Assembly: GCA_902613795.1 (NCBI GenBank)
Contig: CACMIP010000001.1
Coordinates: 416,087-480,086 of the forward strand
DNA: 64,000 bases
Source of the DNA: an uncultured OCS116 cluster bacterium
Lineage (GTDB): Bacteria; Pseudomonadota; Alphaproteobacteria; Rhizobiales; TMED25
Reading direction: 5' to 3'
The position numbers and the translations under genes were made by a program. Shown one piece after another: positions 8,199 through 61,971 of the stretch. The stretch's first letter is position 1. Every line of letters starts with the position of its first letter. The notes under the pieces were generated by a model, which saw only the letters and a list, made by a program, of their open reading frames with translations, ran no database searches and was not told where the DNA came from.

Positions 8199-8873
8199 AT
8201 GGCAGATACCCTATTATCGTTAGAAAATGTTTATCACAGATATAGTATATCCCGAGATATTTTTAATGACATAAGTTTGAATATCAAAGAGGGTGATTTT
8301 TATTTTATTACAGGATCTTCCGGTGCAGGGAAAACGACCTTTCTAAAACTTCTGTCGTCGTCATTAAGGCCGACAAGCGGTAGCGTGCTATTTAGTGGAG
8401 TAAATTTAAATACAATCCCACAAAATAAGATTTACCTCATAAAACGGAAAATCGGCTTTGTTTTTCAGGATTTTCGATTACTACCCCATTTAACTACATA
8501 CGAGAATGTTGCATTACCATTAAAAGTTCAAAATAAAAAAGAAAAAAACTACAAAAAAGATGTTGTTGAGCTGCTCAATTGGGTTAATCTCGAGCATTGT
8601 ACCCATAGCTATCCAAATTATCTATCTGGGGGGGAACAACAGAGGGCCGCAATTGCAAGAGCTGTTATATCAACTCCAAAGCTAATACTAGCTGATGAAC
8701 CGACTGGTAACGTCGATTATGAAAATTCAAAAAAAATTCTCAGTCTCTTTAGTGAAATGAATAAATTAGGAACAACTATTATCATAGCCACACACGATGA
8801 AAGTCTGATATCCCATAAGAGAGCGAGCATTATTAAAATAGAAAATAATGGAATTAGGATACGAAGTAAGTGA
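8199..8873 (+). CDS. ftsE: Cell division ATP-binding protein FtsE
   Basis: Cytoplasmic ATPase of the FtsEX complex, an ABC-type mechanotransmitter that controls septal peptidoglycan hydrolases. Walker A GSSGAGKT at 39-46, signature LSGGEQQRAAIARA near 144, Walker B LILADEPTGNVD and the switch histidine in IIIATHDE are all intact in 224 aa. The stop codon overlaps the GTG start of ftsX (GTGA), so the two are translationally coupled. The ATPase looks normal although its partner is shortened. Confidence 0.95.
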   Translation: MADTLLSLENVYHRYSISRDIFNDISLNIKEGDFYFITGSSGAGKTTFLKLLSSSLRPTSGSVLFSGVNLNTIPQNKIYLIKRKIGFVFQDFRLLPHLTTYENVALPLKVQNKKEKNYKKDVVELLNWVNLEHCTHSYPNYLSGGEQQRAAIARAVISTPKLILADEPTGNVDYENSKKILSLFSEMNKLGTTIIIATHDESLISHKRASIIKIENNGIRIRSK

Positions 8874-9508
8874 ATATAATTAATAAGATGATAGATAAAT
8901 CTGAAGCAAAAAGAGTAATGAAACAACTTGCTCCAAAACCATCATCAATTATTTCAAGTACTAATTTTCACAGTAAATATCTATTTATTGTAATATCTCT
9001 TTTGAGCTATTTAATAGCAATACTTTTGACATCATTTGTCATCCTTATTGGTCAGCCTGAATTTTCAGCATTATCCATAGGTATGATACAAACTAGCCTA
9101 ATATCTTGGGTAACGTTAATTTTTATAATTTTTATTATTATCTCATACATAATTATGTATGGAACTCACACATCAATCATTTATAATAGAAATACTATAA
9201 ATCTATTAATACAACTTGGTGCTTCAAATAATTTTGTAATAAGCAAAATTGTCTACTCTTTCACAAAAATAGGTTTAACTGCTGGATTGACTGGATCATT
9301 TGCTGGATTAATAACAATTATCTTTATCAATCCATTCCTACTTCAAATTAGTGGGTTCTTTAATAATATCTCTGATTTGGTCGTGGTGTCATCCAACTCA
9401 GTGTATGCTCAGTATTATATATTTATGTTAATACCTCTTTTTATTATTGCCGTCTGTTCTATATCATCATATGTGACCGTCAAAAGATTAGTAAAGAAAT
9501 ATTATTAA
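8870..9508 (+). CDS. ftsX: Cell division protein FtsX, lacking the periplasmic domain
   Basis: Membrane partner of FtsE. Four helices are predicted at about 37-60, 74-97, 132-158 and 181-203, and the stretch NTINLLIQLGASNNFVISKI between helices 2 and 3 aligns with the conserved coupling segment of FtsX. Only about 13 residues separate helices 1 and 2, where family members normally carry a periplasmic domain of roughly 100 residues or more that contacts hydrolase activators; total length is 212 aa rather than about 300. The frame is open throughout, so this is a clean internal deletion, not a frameshift. GTG start overlaps ftsE. Confidence 0.85.
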   Translation: MNIINKMIDKSEAKRVMKQLAPKPSSIISSTNFHSKYLFIVISLLSYLIAILLTSFVILIGQPEFSALSIGMIQTSLISWVTLIFIIFIIISYIIMYGTHTSIIYNRNTINLLIQLGASNNFVISKIVYSFTKIGLTAGLTGSFAGLITIIFINPFLLQISGFFNNISDLVVVSSNSVYAQYYIFMLIPLFIIAVCSISSYVTVKRLVKKYY

Positions 9509-9523
9509 ATTAATAATAGCAAG

Positions 9524-10117
9524 ATGTATAAATCACTAAAAATACTGAAAATAACAGCTTCAATTATGTGTGTCTTTATTCTTACACTTGATATCGTTGA
9601 TTTTGTAAGAATATTCAACGCGAAACCAACCATTATTGAAAAATCAAACACCATAGATGGAATAGTGGTATTTACAGGTGGTGAAGATCGTATAAAAACC
9701 TCAATTGATCTTCTATCCAGTGGTATTGCAAAACACCTGTTTATATCTGGCGTTAATCCGGATACAAATAAATATAACATATCAGAGCAAATACATATTG
9801 ACGCCAATCTAATTGACTGTTGTATAGACCTGGGAAATAACGCAAAAGATACCTTTGAAAACGCAGTAGAGTCCACTGGGTGGATTAGAGAAAATCAATA
9901 CAAAAATATAATTATCGTAACTTCTGATTACCACATGAAAAGAAGTTTACTGATTTTAAAAAATTTAAGTGAGGATGCCAACTTTTTCCCTTATCATGTT
10001 AAAAGTAAGCTACTCAATGATATGAATATTACAAAATTTGAAAAGCTAAGGATAATCGTACTTGAATATTCAAAATATCTATTTACACGTTTAAGATTAT
10101 TGTTTGTATTTAATTAG
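9524..10117 (+). CDS. YdcF/SanA/ElyC family (DUF218) membrane-anchored protein
   Basis: A 197-aa protein with one N-terminal membrane helix (about 8-30) and a DUF218 domain: VVFTGGEDRIKTSIDLL, LFISGVNPD, NAKDTFENA and IIVTSDYHMKRSLLIL are the four conserved segments. Relatives (ElyC, SanA, YdcF) affect envelope integrity and lipid-carrier metabolism, without a settled reaction. ftsEX-DUF218-plsC is a recurrent alphaproteobacterial order, and spacing here is 15 nt upstream and 9 nt downstream. Confidence 0.88.
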   Translation: MYKSLKILKITASIMCVFILTLDIVDFVRIFNAKPTIIEKSNTIDGIVVFTGGEDRIKTSIDLLSSGIAKHLFISGVNPDTNKYNISEQIHIDANLIDCCIDLGNNAKDTFENAVESTGWIRENQYKNIIIVTSDYHMKRSLLILKNLSEDANFFPYHVKSKLLNDMNITKFEKLRIIVLEYSKYLFTRLRLLFVFN

Positions 10118-10126
10118 GTGATTTGA

Positions 10127-10834
10127 ATGATAAGAGGAGTTCTTTATTATATTATTTTTTCATTAAACCTATTAATATTTTCTATCATTTTTTTACCTTT
10201 ATTTTTCCTCCCAAGATCAATCGGGTTAATTATCTTGAGTTTTTGGGCAAAAGTTTCTCAGAGTATACTCTTCTATTTGTGTAAGGTTGATTTTGAAATT
10301 TATGGGCAAGAATTTATTCCAAAAGAGCAAGCATTAATTGCTTCGAAGCATCAATCAACTTGGGAGACAATCAATTTTCTCCATATCTTAGATCAGCCGC
10401 CCATAATGATATTAAAAAAAGAATTACTATTTATTCCATTCTTTGGTCAATATGCACTAAAATTTGGTAATATTCCAATCAACAGAAAAGCTGGTATTTC
10501 TGCTATAAAAGATATGGTAAAAAAAGCAAAAAAAAGCAAAGACCAAAAGAGATCCATATTAATATTCCCAGAGGGTACGAGAAGTGTAATTAATTCAGAC
10601 CCAGAATATAAAAGAGGTATATTAGCTTTATATAAGAATTTAAAAATACCATGTGTGCCTGTTGCGTTAAATTCAGGGCTGTTTTGGCCAAAAAATAAAC
10701 TGAGAAAGAGACCAGGTAAGATATTGGTTGAATTTCTAAAGCCCATTGAACCCGGTCTTGGTGATGATGATTTCATGGTGCAATTAGAAACAAGGATTGA
10801 AGAGGCAACAAATCGACTTGTCAAGCAACTCTAG
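10127..10834 (+). CDS. plsC: 1-acyl-sn-glycerol-3-phosphate acyltransferase
   Basis: Acylates lysophosphatidic acid to phosphatidic acid at the inner membrane. An N-terminal membrane segment (about 5-30) is followed by the acyltransferase motifs: H75-QSTW-E80, the HX4E variant of the HX4D site common in this clade, PINRKAG near 117-123, and FPEGTRS at 147-153. The 235-aa length is normal. Last gene of the forward run; its stop is only 5 nt from the end of the convergent tyrA. Confidence 0.93.
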   Translation: MIRGVLYYIIFSLNLLIFSIIFLPLFFLPRSIGLIILSFWAKVSQSILFYLCKVDFEIYGQEFIPKEQALIASKHQSTWETINFLHILDQPPIMILKKELLFIPFFGQYALKFGNIPINRKAGISAIKDMVKKAKKSKDQKRSILIFPEGTRSVINSDPEYKRGILALYKNLKIPCVPVALNSGLFWPKNKLRKRPGKILVEFLKPIEPGLGDDDFMVQLETRIEEATNRLVKQL

Positions 10835-19402: not shown

Positions 19403-19783
19403 TTAATGTGCAGGGTTGATTGCAAATTCTTTTAATATATTAAGTTGAACATACTTGAGGGCCGCTTCATCACAGGCCTCTAGAATCACAGCTGGTGCTA
19501 CCCCTTCCTCCCATGCCTCTTTCCATCTCAAAGCACAAAGGCACCACCTATCCCCTGGTAATAAACCAGGGAAATTATATTCCGGTCTAGGGGTTGAAAG
19601 ATCATTACCACGACTTTTTGAAAACTCTAAAAATCCAGCCGTAACCTCAGCGCAAATAACATGGCTACCAAGGTCGGTATCGTCTGTTCGACAAAATCCA
19701 TCTCTAAAATATCCAGTTTTTGGGGCATGGCAGCATGATTGTAGCACTCCACCCAAAACATTTTTTTTAATCTCTCTACTCAT
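19403..19783 (-). CDS. DUF2237 family protein
   Basis: A 126-aa protein of the DUF2237 family, recognised by [41 protein letters not shown] and [24 protein letters not shown]. Function unknown; several cysteines (CC near 17-18, C31, C44, C80, C82) and the absence of a signal peptide suggest a cytoplasmic, possibly redox- or metal-related protein. It is 1 nt upstream of selO, so coupled translation and a shared role are plausible inferences. Confidence 0.85.
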
Positions 19784-19836
19784 ATATTCACATTCTTTGC
19801 TTGCACAGCATTATACGACGTTATTTATGACTCAAA

Positions 19837-19926
19837 TGGCGGAGAGAGAGGGATTCGAACCCTCGATAGTATTGCTACTATACACGCGTTCCAGGCGTGC
19901 GCCTTAAACCACTCGGCCACCTCTCC
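19837..19926 (-). tRNA. tRNA-Ser (anticodon GGA)
   Basis: Class II tRNA of 90 nt with encoded CCA. Acceptor GGAGAGG pairs with TCTCTCC, D-arm GCCGAGTGGTTTAAGGC, anticodon loop CTGGAAC giving GGA, a long variable arm pairing around TATAGTAGCAATACTAT, and T-arm GAGGGTTCGAATCCCTC. Reads UCC and UCU. Confidence 0.96.
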
Positions 19927-35657: not shown

Positions 35658-36980
35658 ATGGGTCTTGGTCTAACAAATATTGCAACAATAAATCAGGCAC
35701 AAACGCTATCACCGCAAGTGCAATTAACGATAAAATTGTTAAGTCTCAACAATGTCGAGCTCGAGAGCTATTTAGAAAAAAAAATAGAGGATAATCCTCT
35801 CTTGATTGAAAAACAAAACACAAAAGAACACGAGCTCAGAATTCAAAAATTTACAGATAAGTATTCCCGAAATTCTTCAAATTTAGATCTATTAAATAAT
35901 ATAAGCTATGCAAAATCTCTACGAGAACATCTTCTGGACCAATTGCTCATCTCAAAGATGAATAATAAAGAAAAAATTATCGCGACTTACCTTATAAATA
36001 TTTTAGATGAAGCTGGTTACTTGACTGAAAATGATGAAATAATTTGCACAAAGCTTGGAATTGATACTGAGGTATACGAAAAGATTTTGATAAGTTTACA
36101 AAATTTCGAGCCGACTGGAGTATTTGCAAGGACCCTCAGTGAATGTATTTATTTGCAACTTAGAGAGAAAAATTTAATTAATGAAGAATTATCAGAGCTT
36201 CTGGCGAATATTGAACTCATTGCGGAAGACAATTATAGGGAATTAACTTCCCGCCTAAATATTGGTAAGGAAGATTTGTATAAGTTAATAAATGTGATAA
36301 GAAAATGTAATCCTAAGCCAGGTTTAAATTACTCACGTGATACTCTTGAAATTATTGCCCCTGATATCATTATCGAAAAGAACTCGAGTGGTGTGTATGC
36401 AATAAGGCTCATACAAAATTACTTTTCAAACATTACTGTCGACCAAACATACAGCGATATAATACTAGAATCAAAAAAGAAAAAAGATGAATTCATAACA
36501 AACCACTATCGAGATGCAAAGATGTTGATCAGTAGCATAGCGCAAAGACAGAGAACTCTGTTAAAAATTGCATATGAGGTAATGTTACAGCAAAGAGGTT
36601 TTCTTGAGAATGGAATTAATCATATGCGGCCATTAAATTTAGATAAAATTTCAAAAATGACAAATCTTCACATTTCCACAGTGAGCAGATCTATTCAAAA
36701 TAAATTTATTGAAACACCAAGGGGGACATTTGAGATGAAGTATTTCTTCGATAAAGGTACTTACGGAGAAGAACAAGATACGCAAATTTCATCAAAGACA
36801 ATAGAAAATAGAATTAAAGAACTCATAAAAAACGAGACCCCGTCAAATATCTTATCTGATGACAAAATTGTAAACCTATTAAAAAAATATGATATAAATA
36901 TAGCAAGAAGAACAGTAGCAAAATACCGTACAAAATTGAATATTTTACCTTCATCCAAAAGAAAGAACCGTTATCTTTAG
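35658..36980 (+). CDS. rpoN: RNA polymerase sigma-54 factor
   Basis: Alternative sigma factor requiring AAA+ enhancer-binding proteins. Region I (QAQTLSPQVQLTIKLLSLNNVELESYLEKKIEDNPLL), the core-binding domain (TGVFARTLSECIYLQLR), the helix-turn-helix (ISKMTNLHISTVSRSIQNKFIETPRGTFEMKYFF) and RpoN box ARRTVAKYR near residue 418 are all present in 440 aa. No enhancer-binding protein is in the window. hpf and ptsN, usual downstream neighbours, are absent; a catabolic gene starts 19 nt after. Confidence 0.95.
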   Translation: MGLGLTNIATINQAQTLSPQVQLTIKLLSLNNVELESYLEKKIEDNPLLIEKQNTKEHELRIQKFTDKYSRNSSNLDLLNNISYAKSLREHLLDQLLISKMNNKEKIIATYLINILDEAGYLTENDEIICTKLGIDTEVYEKILISLQNFEPTGVFARTLSECIYLQLREKNLINEELSELLANIELIAEDNYRELTSRLNIGKEDLYKLINVIRKCNPKPGLNYSRDTLEIIAPDIIIEKNSSGVYAIRLIQNYFSNITVDQTYSDIILESKKKKDEFITNHYRDAKMLISSIAQRQRTLLKIAYEVMLQQRGFLENGINHMRPLNLDKISKMTNLHISTVSRSIQNKFIETPRGTFEMKYFFDKGTYGEEQDTQISSKTIENRIKELIKNETPSNILSDDKIVNLLKKYDINIARRTVAKYRTKLNILPSSKRKNRYL

Positions 36981-61870: not shown

Positions 61871-61971
61871 TGTGAGAAGTTAGTGTTGGACGTAATTATC
61901 GCCAATCGGGTCAGGTCCGGAAGGAAGCAGCCACAACGATTTTTTTGCGGGTCATTAGCTAACTTCTCACA
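61871..61971 (+). ncRNA. ffs: Bacterial small signal recognition particle RNA (4.5S)
   Basis: About 100 nt closed by a perfect 13-bp stem (TGTGAGAAGTTAG at 61871-61883 with its complement at 61959-61971). The universally conserved domain IV GGTCAGGTCCGGAAGGAAGCAGCC, with the GGAA tetraloop and Ffh-binding internal loops, sits at the tip, flanked by AATCG/CGATT (61904-61908 and 61937-61941). A run of seven T lies on the 3' side within the hairpin. Upstream of dnaX, as in many Alphaproteobacteria. Confidence 0.96.

Follow-up and report, generated by a model that had tools for sequence, protein, structure and literature searches.

What does an FtsEX complex do when its FtsX subunit is without the periplasmic domain? 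This question is raised by the ftsE-ftsX gene pair in a 64,000-nucleotide stretch of DNA (the window) from an uncultured bacterium of the OCS116 cluster, family TMED25. The usual description of FtsEX is that of a mechanotransmitter by which cell wall hydrolases are switched on. In this family, we found that the extracellular domain (ECD) of FtsX has been deleted and that EnvC/LdpF and the Amidase_3 amidase have been lost as well, that the region coupling FtsX to FtsE is conserved, and that ftsX is under purifying selection. The probable explanation is a natural separation-of-function FtsEX, in which the cytoplasmic role at the Z ring and divisome and in septal synthesis is kept and the activation of hydrolases has been dropped.

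Deletion of the extracellular domain from FtsX

The ftsX gene (8870..9508, on the forward strand, as are all features of the locus described below) encodes 212 amino acids, and its GTG start codon overlaps the stop codon of ftsE. The AlphaFold2 model of the product (mean predicted local distance difference test, pLDDT, 75.7; predicted template modelling score, pTM, 0.67) contains helices at residues 33-61, 70-105, 120-164 and 178-211. The first of these is transmembrane helix 1 (TM1, 8966..9052), which aligns with TM1 of full-length FtsX; alignment and model likewise place TM2 (9101..9184) and TM3 (9242..9334) within the second and third helices and TM4 (9401..9502) at the fourth. The cytoplasmic region between TM2 and TM3 (9185..9241), in which N106, L113, G117, A118 and F122 are invariant, we take to be the coupling helix typical of type VII ATP-binding cassette (ABC) proteins. 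Between TM1 and TM2, the ECD of about 100 residues is cut down to a remnant of about 13-16 residues (residues 62-77, 9053..9100). When the protein was aligned with homologues from the order (314-345 amino acids), TM1 and TM2-TM4 stayed in register and a single large gap accounted for the roughly 100 missing ECD residues. The missing block starts after SALSIGM, which is aligned to the first ECD strand (SQVTVQI), and stops just before TM2, and the remnant (PEFSALSI..Q) sits at the start of that strand. The helices of the model superpose on those of solved FtsX structures (8tzj, 8hd0, 8w6i, 8i6o and 8idb), in all of which TM1 and TM2 are separated by a periplasmic domain that the window protein does not have. 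A review describes FtsX as being made up of a transmembrane domain and an extracellular domain to which its partner binds (PMC11627006). A sequence-only reading of the window had proposed an FtsX without its periplasmic domain, with four helices and only about 13 residues between the first two, next to a complete FtsE. The open reading frame, the model and the homologue alignment bear out the first proposal, and the second agrees with the 224-residue ATPase encoded by ftsE (8199..8873), which carries all ABC motifs (Walker A, Q-loop, LSGGE, Walker B and H-loop) and scores 268.7 bits against TIGR02673 (cut-off 264.85).

Foldseek searches with the FtsX model returned FtsX chains as the top solved matches (8tzj_C, E = 1.6e-3; none at or below 1e-3), and in VIA-align the superposition on FtsX 8tzj_C (Z 16.6, root mean square deviation 2.8, 174 residues) was tied with that on the heme exporter HrtB (7w7a_J, Z 17.1). 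The fold by itself therefore identifies no more than a type VII ABC permease, and the case for descent from FtsX is made by alignment and gene order. The curated FtsX model TIGR00439 gave 8.6 bits against a cut-off of 255, and three full-length homologues from the order also reached just 56-71 bits. The protein has a type VII four-helix membrane core that can be aligned to orthologs, and its gene lies directly 3' of a bona fide ftsE in the neighbourhood typical of its orthologs. This includes a DUF218 (YdcF-like) gene (9524..10117, PF02698) and a PlsC-like acyltransferase gene (10127..10834, PF01553), and the order ftsE-ftsX-ydcF-plsC was found both at family loci (L002, L005, L010 and L047) and in relatives from the order with full-length FtsX (L015, L018 and L020). 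Gene order, alignable transmembrane core and FtsX-like predicted fold identify the product as a true FtsX ortholog by descent; as it has no large periplasmic domain, it is called FtsX by descent only and is not a full FtsX. It is very improbable that FtsE and FtsX have been turned into a transporter or extractor in the manner of the type VII systems LolCDE and HrtBA. This idea draws on the tie between HrtB and FtsX 8tzj_C, on the alignment of the model with Lol proteins and on LolF being the best sequence match of the short-form profile, but FtsE scores above the FtsE equivalog cut-off and far below the LolD cut-off, and the neighbourhood of ftsX is unchanged. Transporters of this type moreover handle their substrate with periplasmic domains.

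The window genome comprises 1.32 Mb in 10 contigs; its near relatives are OCS116-cluster, 'Rhodobiaceae' and TMED25 assemblies, which are of marine origin. Our comparison at the level of the order covered 61 genomes, 14 from the family and 47 others. The short FtsX, of 211-221 amino acids, was present throughout the family (12 genomes of the window genus and two of another genus), in single-cell assemblies as well as metagenome-assembled genomes from the two genera. An assembly deletion at about 9050-9090 is ruled out by this distribution. The suspicion that relatives might encode the domain and that a local assembly error had removed it here did not hold, as domain-bearing relatives belong only to other families of the order.

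The Pfam model PF18075 (FtsX_ECD) matched none of the 61 genomes, domain-bearing ones included, and was therefore replaced by an alphaproteobacterial ECD profile built from 12 homologues from the order, whose best solved-structure match is the periplasmic domain of E. coli FtsX (6tpi_B, E = 6.6e-4). This profile matched 46 of the 47 genomes outside the family, the sole miss being an 84% complete genome (G060) that gave no FtsX match either, and it detected no ECD, attached or detached, in any of the 14 family genomes. As judged by this profile, the domain is gone from the family genomes and has not been relocated. A protein unrelated in sequence to the ECD would escape such a search, and an unrecognised protein of this kind might supply the lost periplasmic function in trans; given that no detached alphaproteobacterial ECD was found in the family, we regard this as a far-fetched alternative.

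Loss of EnvC/LdpF and of Amidase_3

In many genomes, a search with the single E. coli EnvC sequence could not tell EnvC apart from the other M23 proteins. Because it was too unspecific, a profile was built from 14 homologues from the order, whose solved matches include EnvC chains 8hd0_E and 6tpi_A. Full-length EnvC/LdpF gave strong matches in all 47 genomes outside the family (in G059 truncated at a contig end), and no EnvC/LdpF was found with the profile in the 14 family genomes; weak matches in six of them correspond to the M23 part of another protein. CtpA, the usual neighbour of EnvC, is encoded in 13 of the 14 (none in G007, 73% complete). In the five family genomes whose locus was read (G000, G008, G010, G011 and G012), the order is proA-nadD-rlmH-ctpA-rppH without envC, with 2 bp between rlmH and ctpA in the window genome (G000). 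The order rlmH-envC-ctpA was found in all four loci read from other members of the order (L145, L146, L148 and L154), where a deacetylase gene is also in place. This gene, encoding a divergent polysaccharide deacetylase between ctpA and rppH, was lost along with envC in each of these five family genomes (L178-L182).

No Amidase_3 protein (AmiA/B/C type) was detected in any of the 14 family genomes; 46 of the 47 other genomes have one (missing from G038, 67% complete; under the curated cut-off in G054). The window genome encodes two M23 proteins. One, of 430 amino acids, is ShyA/ShyC/MepM-like with intact HxxxD and HxH motifs. The second, encoded after surE, is a 334-residue LysM-LysM-M23 lipoprotein with degenerate catalytic motifs, which resembles ActS, DipM and NlpD with all scores under the respective cut-offs. 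This NlpD/DipM/ActS-like lipoprotein (L046:4427-5431, contig G000:C5; also L050) is retained in a genome in which no Amidase_3 was detected. For DipM of Caulobacter, interaction with transglycosylases has been reported in addition to that with AmiC (PMC10336132), so an NlpD/DipM-like protein could, by analogy, remain functional without Amidase_3. Of the EnvC/NlpD-like LytM proteins that the sequence-only reading had pointed to, the degenerate lipoprotein is kept and EnvC is not. Among peptidoglycan synthesis genes, the window itself contains an EPSP_synthase-family gene, read as murA, and BacA/UppP.

As EnvC/LdpF and the amidase class that it activates are both missing, no canonical recipient of an FtsX signal remains. 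It had been suggested that the complex must signal in another way, depend on another protein or serve membrane functions only. The lack of a canonical recipient, together with the lack of a detached ECD, speaks for the last of these possibilities, broadened to include a cytoplasmic role in the divisome; another protein in the form of a detached ECD was found in none of the 14 genomes.

Selection on ftsX and a proposed role of the remaining complex

Ratios of nonsynonymous to synonymous substitution rates (dN/dS) for ftsX were 0.06-0.21 in seven of eight pairs, the eighth (0.93 at a dS of 0.03) being little informative, and no internal stop interrupts the reading frame in any of the 14 family genomes. 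By these measures, ftsX is under purifying selection. Within the genus, conservation is highest (84%) at residues 96-124, which are taken to face FtsE; when the two genera are compared, no part of the protein strongly stands out, and the second periplasmic loop (residues 156-177, 9335..9400) is the least conserved internal segment. It would be surprising if FtsX were vestigial and its gene decaying in a streamlining genome: the small genome and the loss of three linked pathway parts would fit such decay, but the intact frame, the low dN/dS and the intact FtsE motifs argue against it.

We propose that an internal deletion removed the ECD in the ancestor of this marine alphaproteobacterial family, together with the loss of EnvC/LdpF and the Amidase_3 amidase. 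What was left would be an ATP-driven FtsE2X2 core, presumably assembled as a dimer, in which each FtsX contributes four membrane helices and the region coupling it to FtsE is intact. FtsE would dock this complex at the Z ring, where it may control divisome assembly and septal peptidoglycan synthesis from the FtsA/FtsZ side, with no wall hydrolase being activated. Other wall enzymes, such as the M23 endopeptidase or hydrolases under the retained NlpD/DipM-like protein, would then carry out cell separation. FtsZ binding by FtsE, action on FtsA and ATP-dependent septal synthesis are inferred here from E. coli, where FtsEX binds FtsZ via FtsE and acts on FtsA, and a loop deletion without EnvC binding still supports division (PMC7343993). 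For Caulobacter, another study reports that the extracellular loop (ECL) of FtsX binds the coiled coil of LdpF in two-hybrid assays, that FtsE affects Z-ring assembly and that FtsX could not be deleted (PMC5607218). We lean cautiously towards the broader view that, in the whole family, FtsEX is an ATP-driven divisome switch that acts purely in the cytoplasm and has no output to the periplasm.

Several observations weigh against this interpretation. In the loop remnant, an alignment of nine family sequences shows S66, S69 and Q74 to be invariant, and these residues could mark a site of interaction. The search for wall enzymes covered Amidase_3, EnvC and M23 proteins, and a new hydrolase partner, for example among Amidase_2, transglycosylases or NlpC/P60, is possible. 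Outward signalling might persist by way of what is left of the first loop, by way of the second loop or by lateral contact of the complex with a partner anchored in the membrane, and control the NlpD/DipM-like protein or the M23 endopeptidase, both of which are retained. We consider this unlikely, since the second loop shows just 15% identity between the genera and no trace was found of EnvC or of the domain known to bind it.

The co-loss of ECD, EnvC and amidase is also not obligatory. In a sample of 385 genomes of the class, 295 gave an FtsX match and 90 did not, and all FtsX matches listed (at least 191.6 bits) span the ECD positions; the lengths leave out matches of about 191-151 bits as well as G256, G319 and G384. 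In a second search of 80 genomes (78 of the class sample, mostly with weak matches, plus G002 and G012), only three family members were without ECD positions. Restriction of the short form to the family within the class is suggested by these data but is not fully shown. Amidase_3 is missing from 64 of the 385 genomes; among the 20 of these that were listed, some, such as G071 and G120, keep EnvC. Seven others of the 20 (G066, G073, G080, G084, G133, G144 and G170) have no Amidase_3 and no full-length match to the EnvC profile, which was built from Rhizobiales and has limited sensitivity outside the order, yet they encode FtsX proteins of 292-323 amino acids spanning the ECD positions. Because these seven keep a long FtsX, loss of the ECD does not follow automatically upon loss of EnvC and amidase. 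Amidase loss as a general cause of ECD loss is unsupported for the same reason.

Elsewhere in the window, a gene for sigma-54 (RpoN; 35658-36980) lies near the lptC/lptA genes, in a genome of 1.3 Mb. A 109-residue open reading frame at 17587-17916 matches MFS_1 positions 88-174 only and is possibly a gene fragment, and one of 150 residues at 19455-19907 overlaps a tRNA on the opposite strand (19840-19926) and is probably not coding. The bacterial small signal recognition particle RNA is found at 61874-61971.

Relation to known FtsEX systems

The family shares the ABC motifs of FtsE, the transmembrane core of FtsX and the ftsE-ftsX gene pair with the FtsEX-EnvC-AmiA/B system of E. coli and the FtsEX-LdpF system of Caulobacter, and differs from both in being without ECD, EnvC/LdpF and Amidase_3. 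It resembles the engineered FtsEX delta-lp of E. coli, a laboratory construct described as still supporting division (PMC7343993), from which it differs in that the loss is natural and family-wide, affects almost the entire domain and goes along with the loss of EnvC and amidase. No report of a loop-less or short FtsX, in OCS116/TMED25 or elsewhere, was found in the open-access library searched.

To our knowledge, the second role of FtsEX, exerted inside the cell on FtsA and FtsZ, has so far been separated only by engineered mutants. A lineage without domain, adaptor and amidase in which FtsEX is nevertheless under purifying selection represents a natural test of this second role and offers a minimal FtsEX complex for structural and biochemical work. 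It also raises the question of how cells of this family separate without Amidase_3. If our interpretation is true, the control of septal synthesis is enough by itself to maintain selection on ftsEX.
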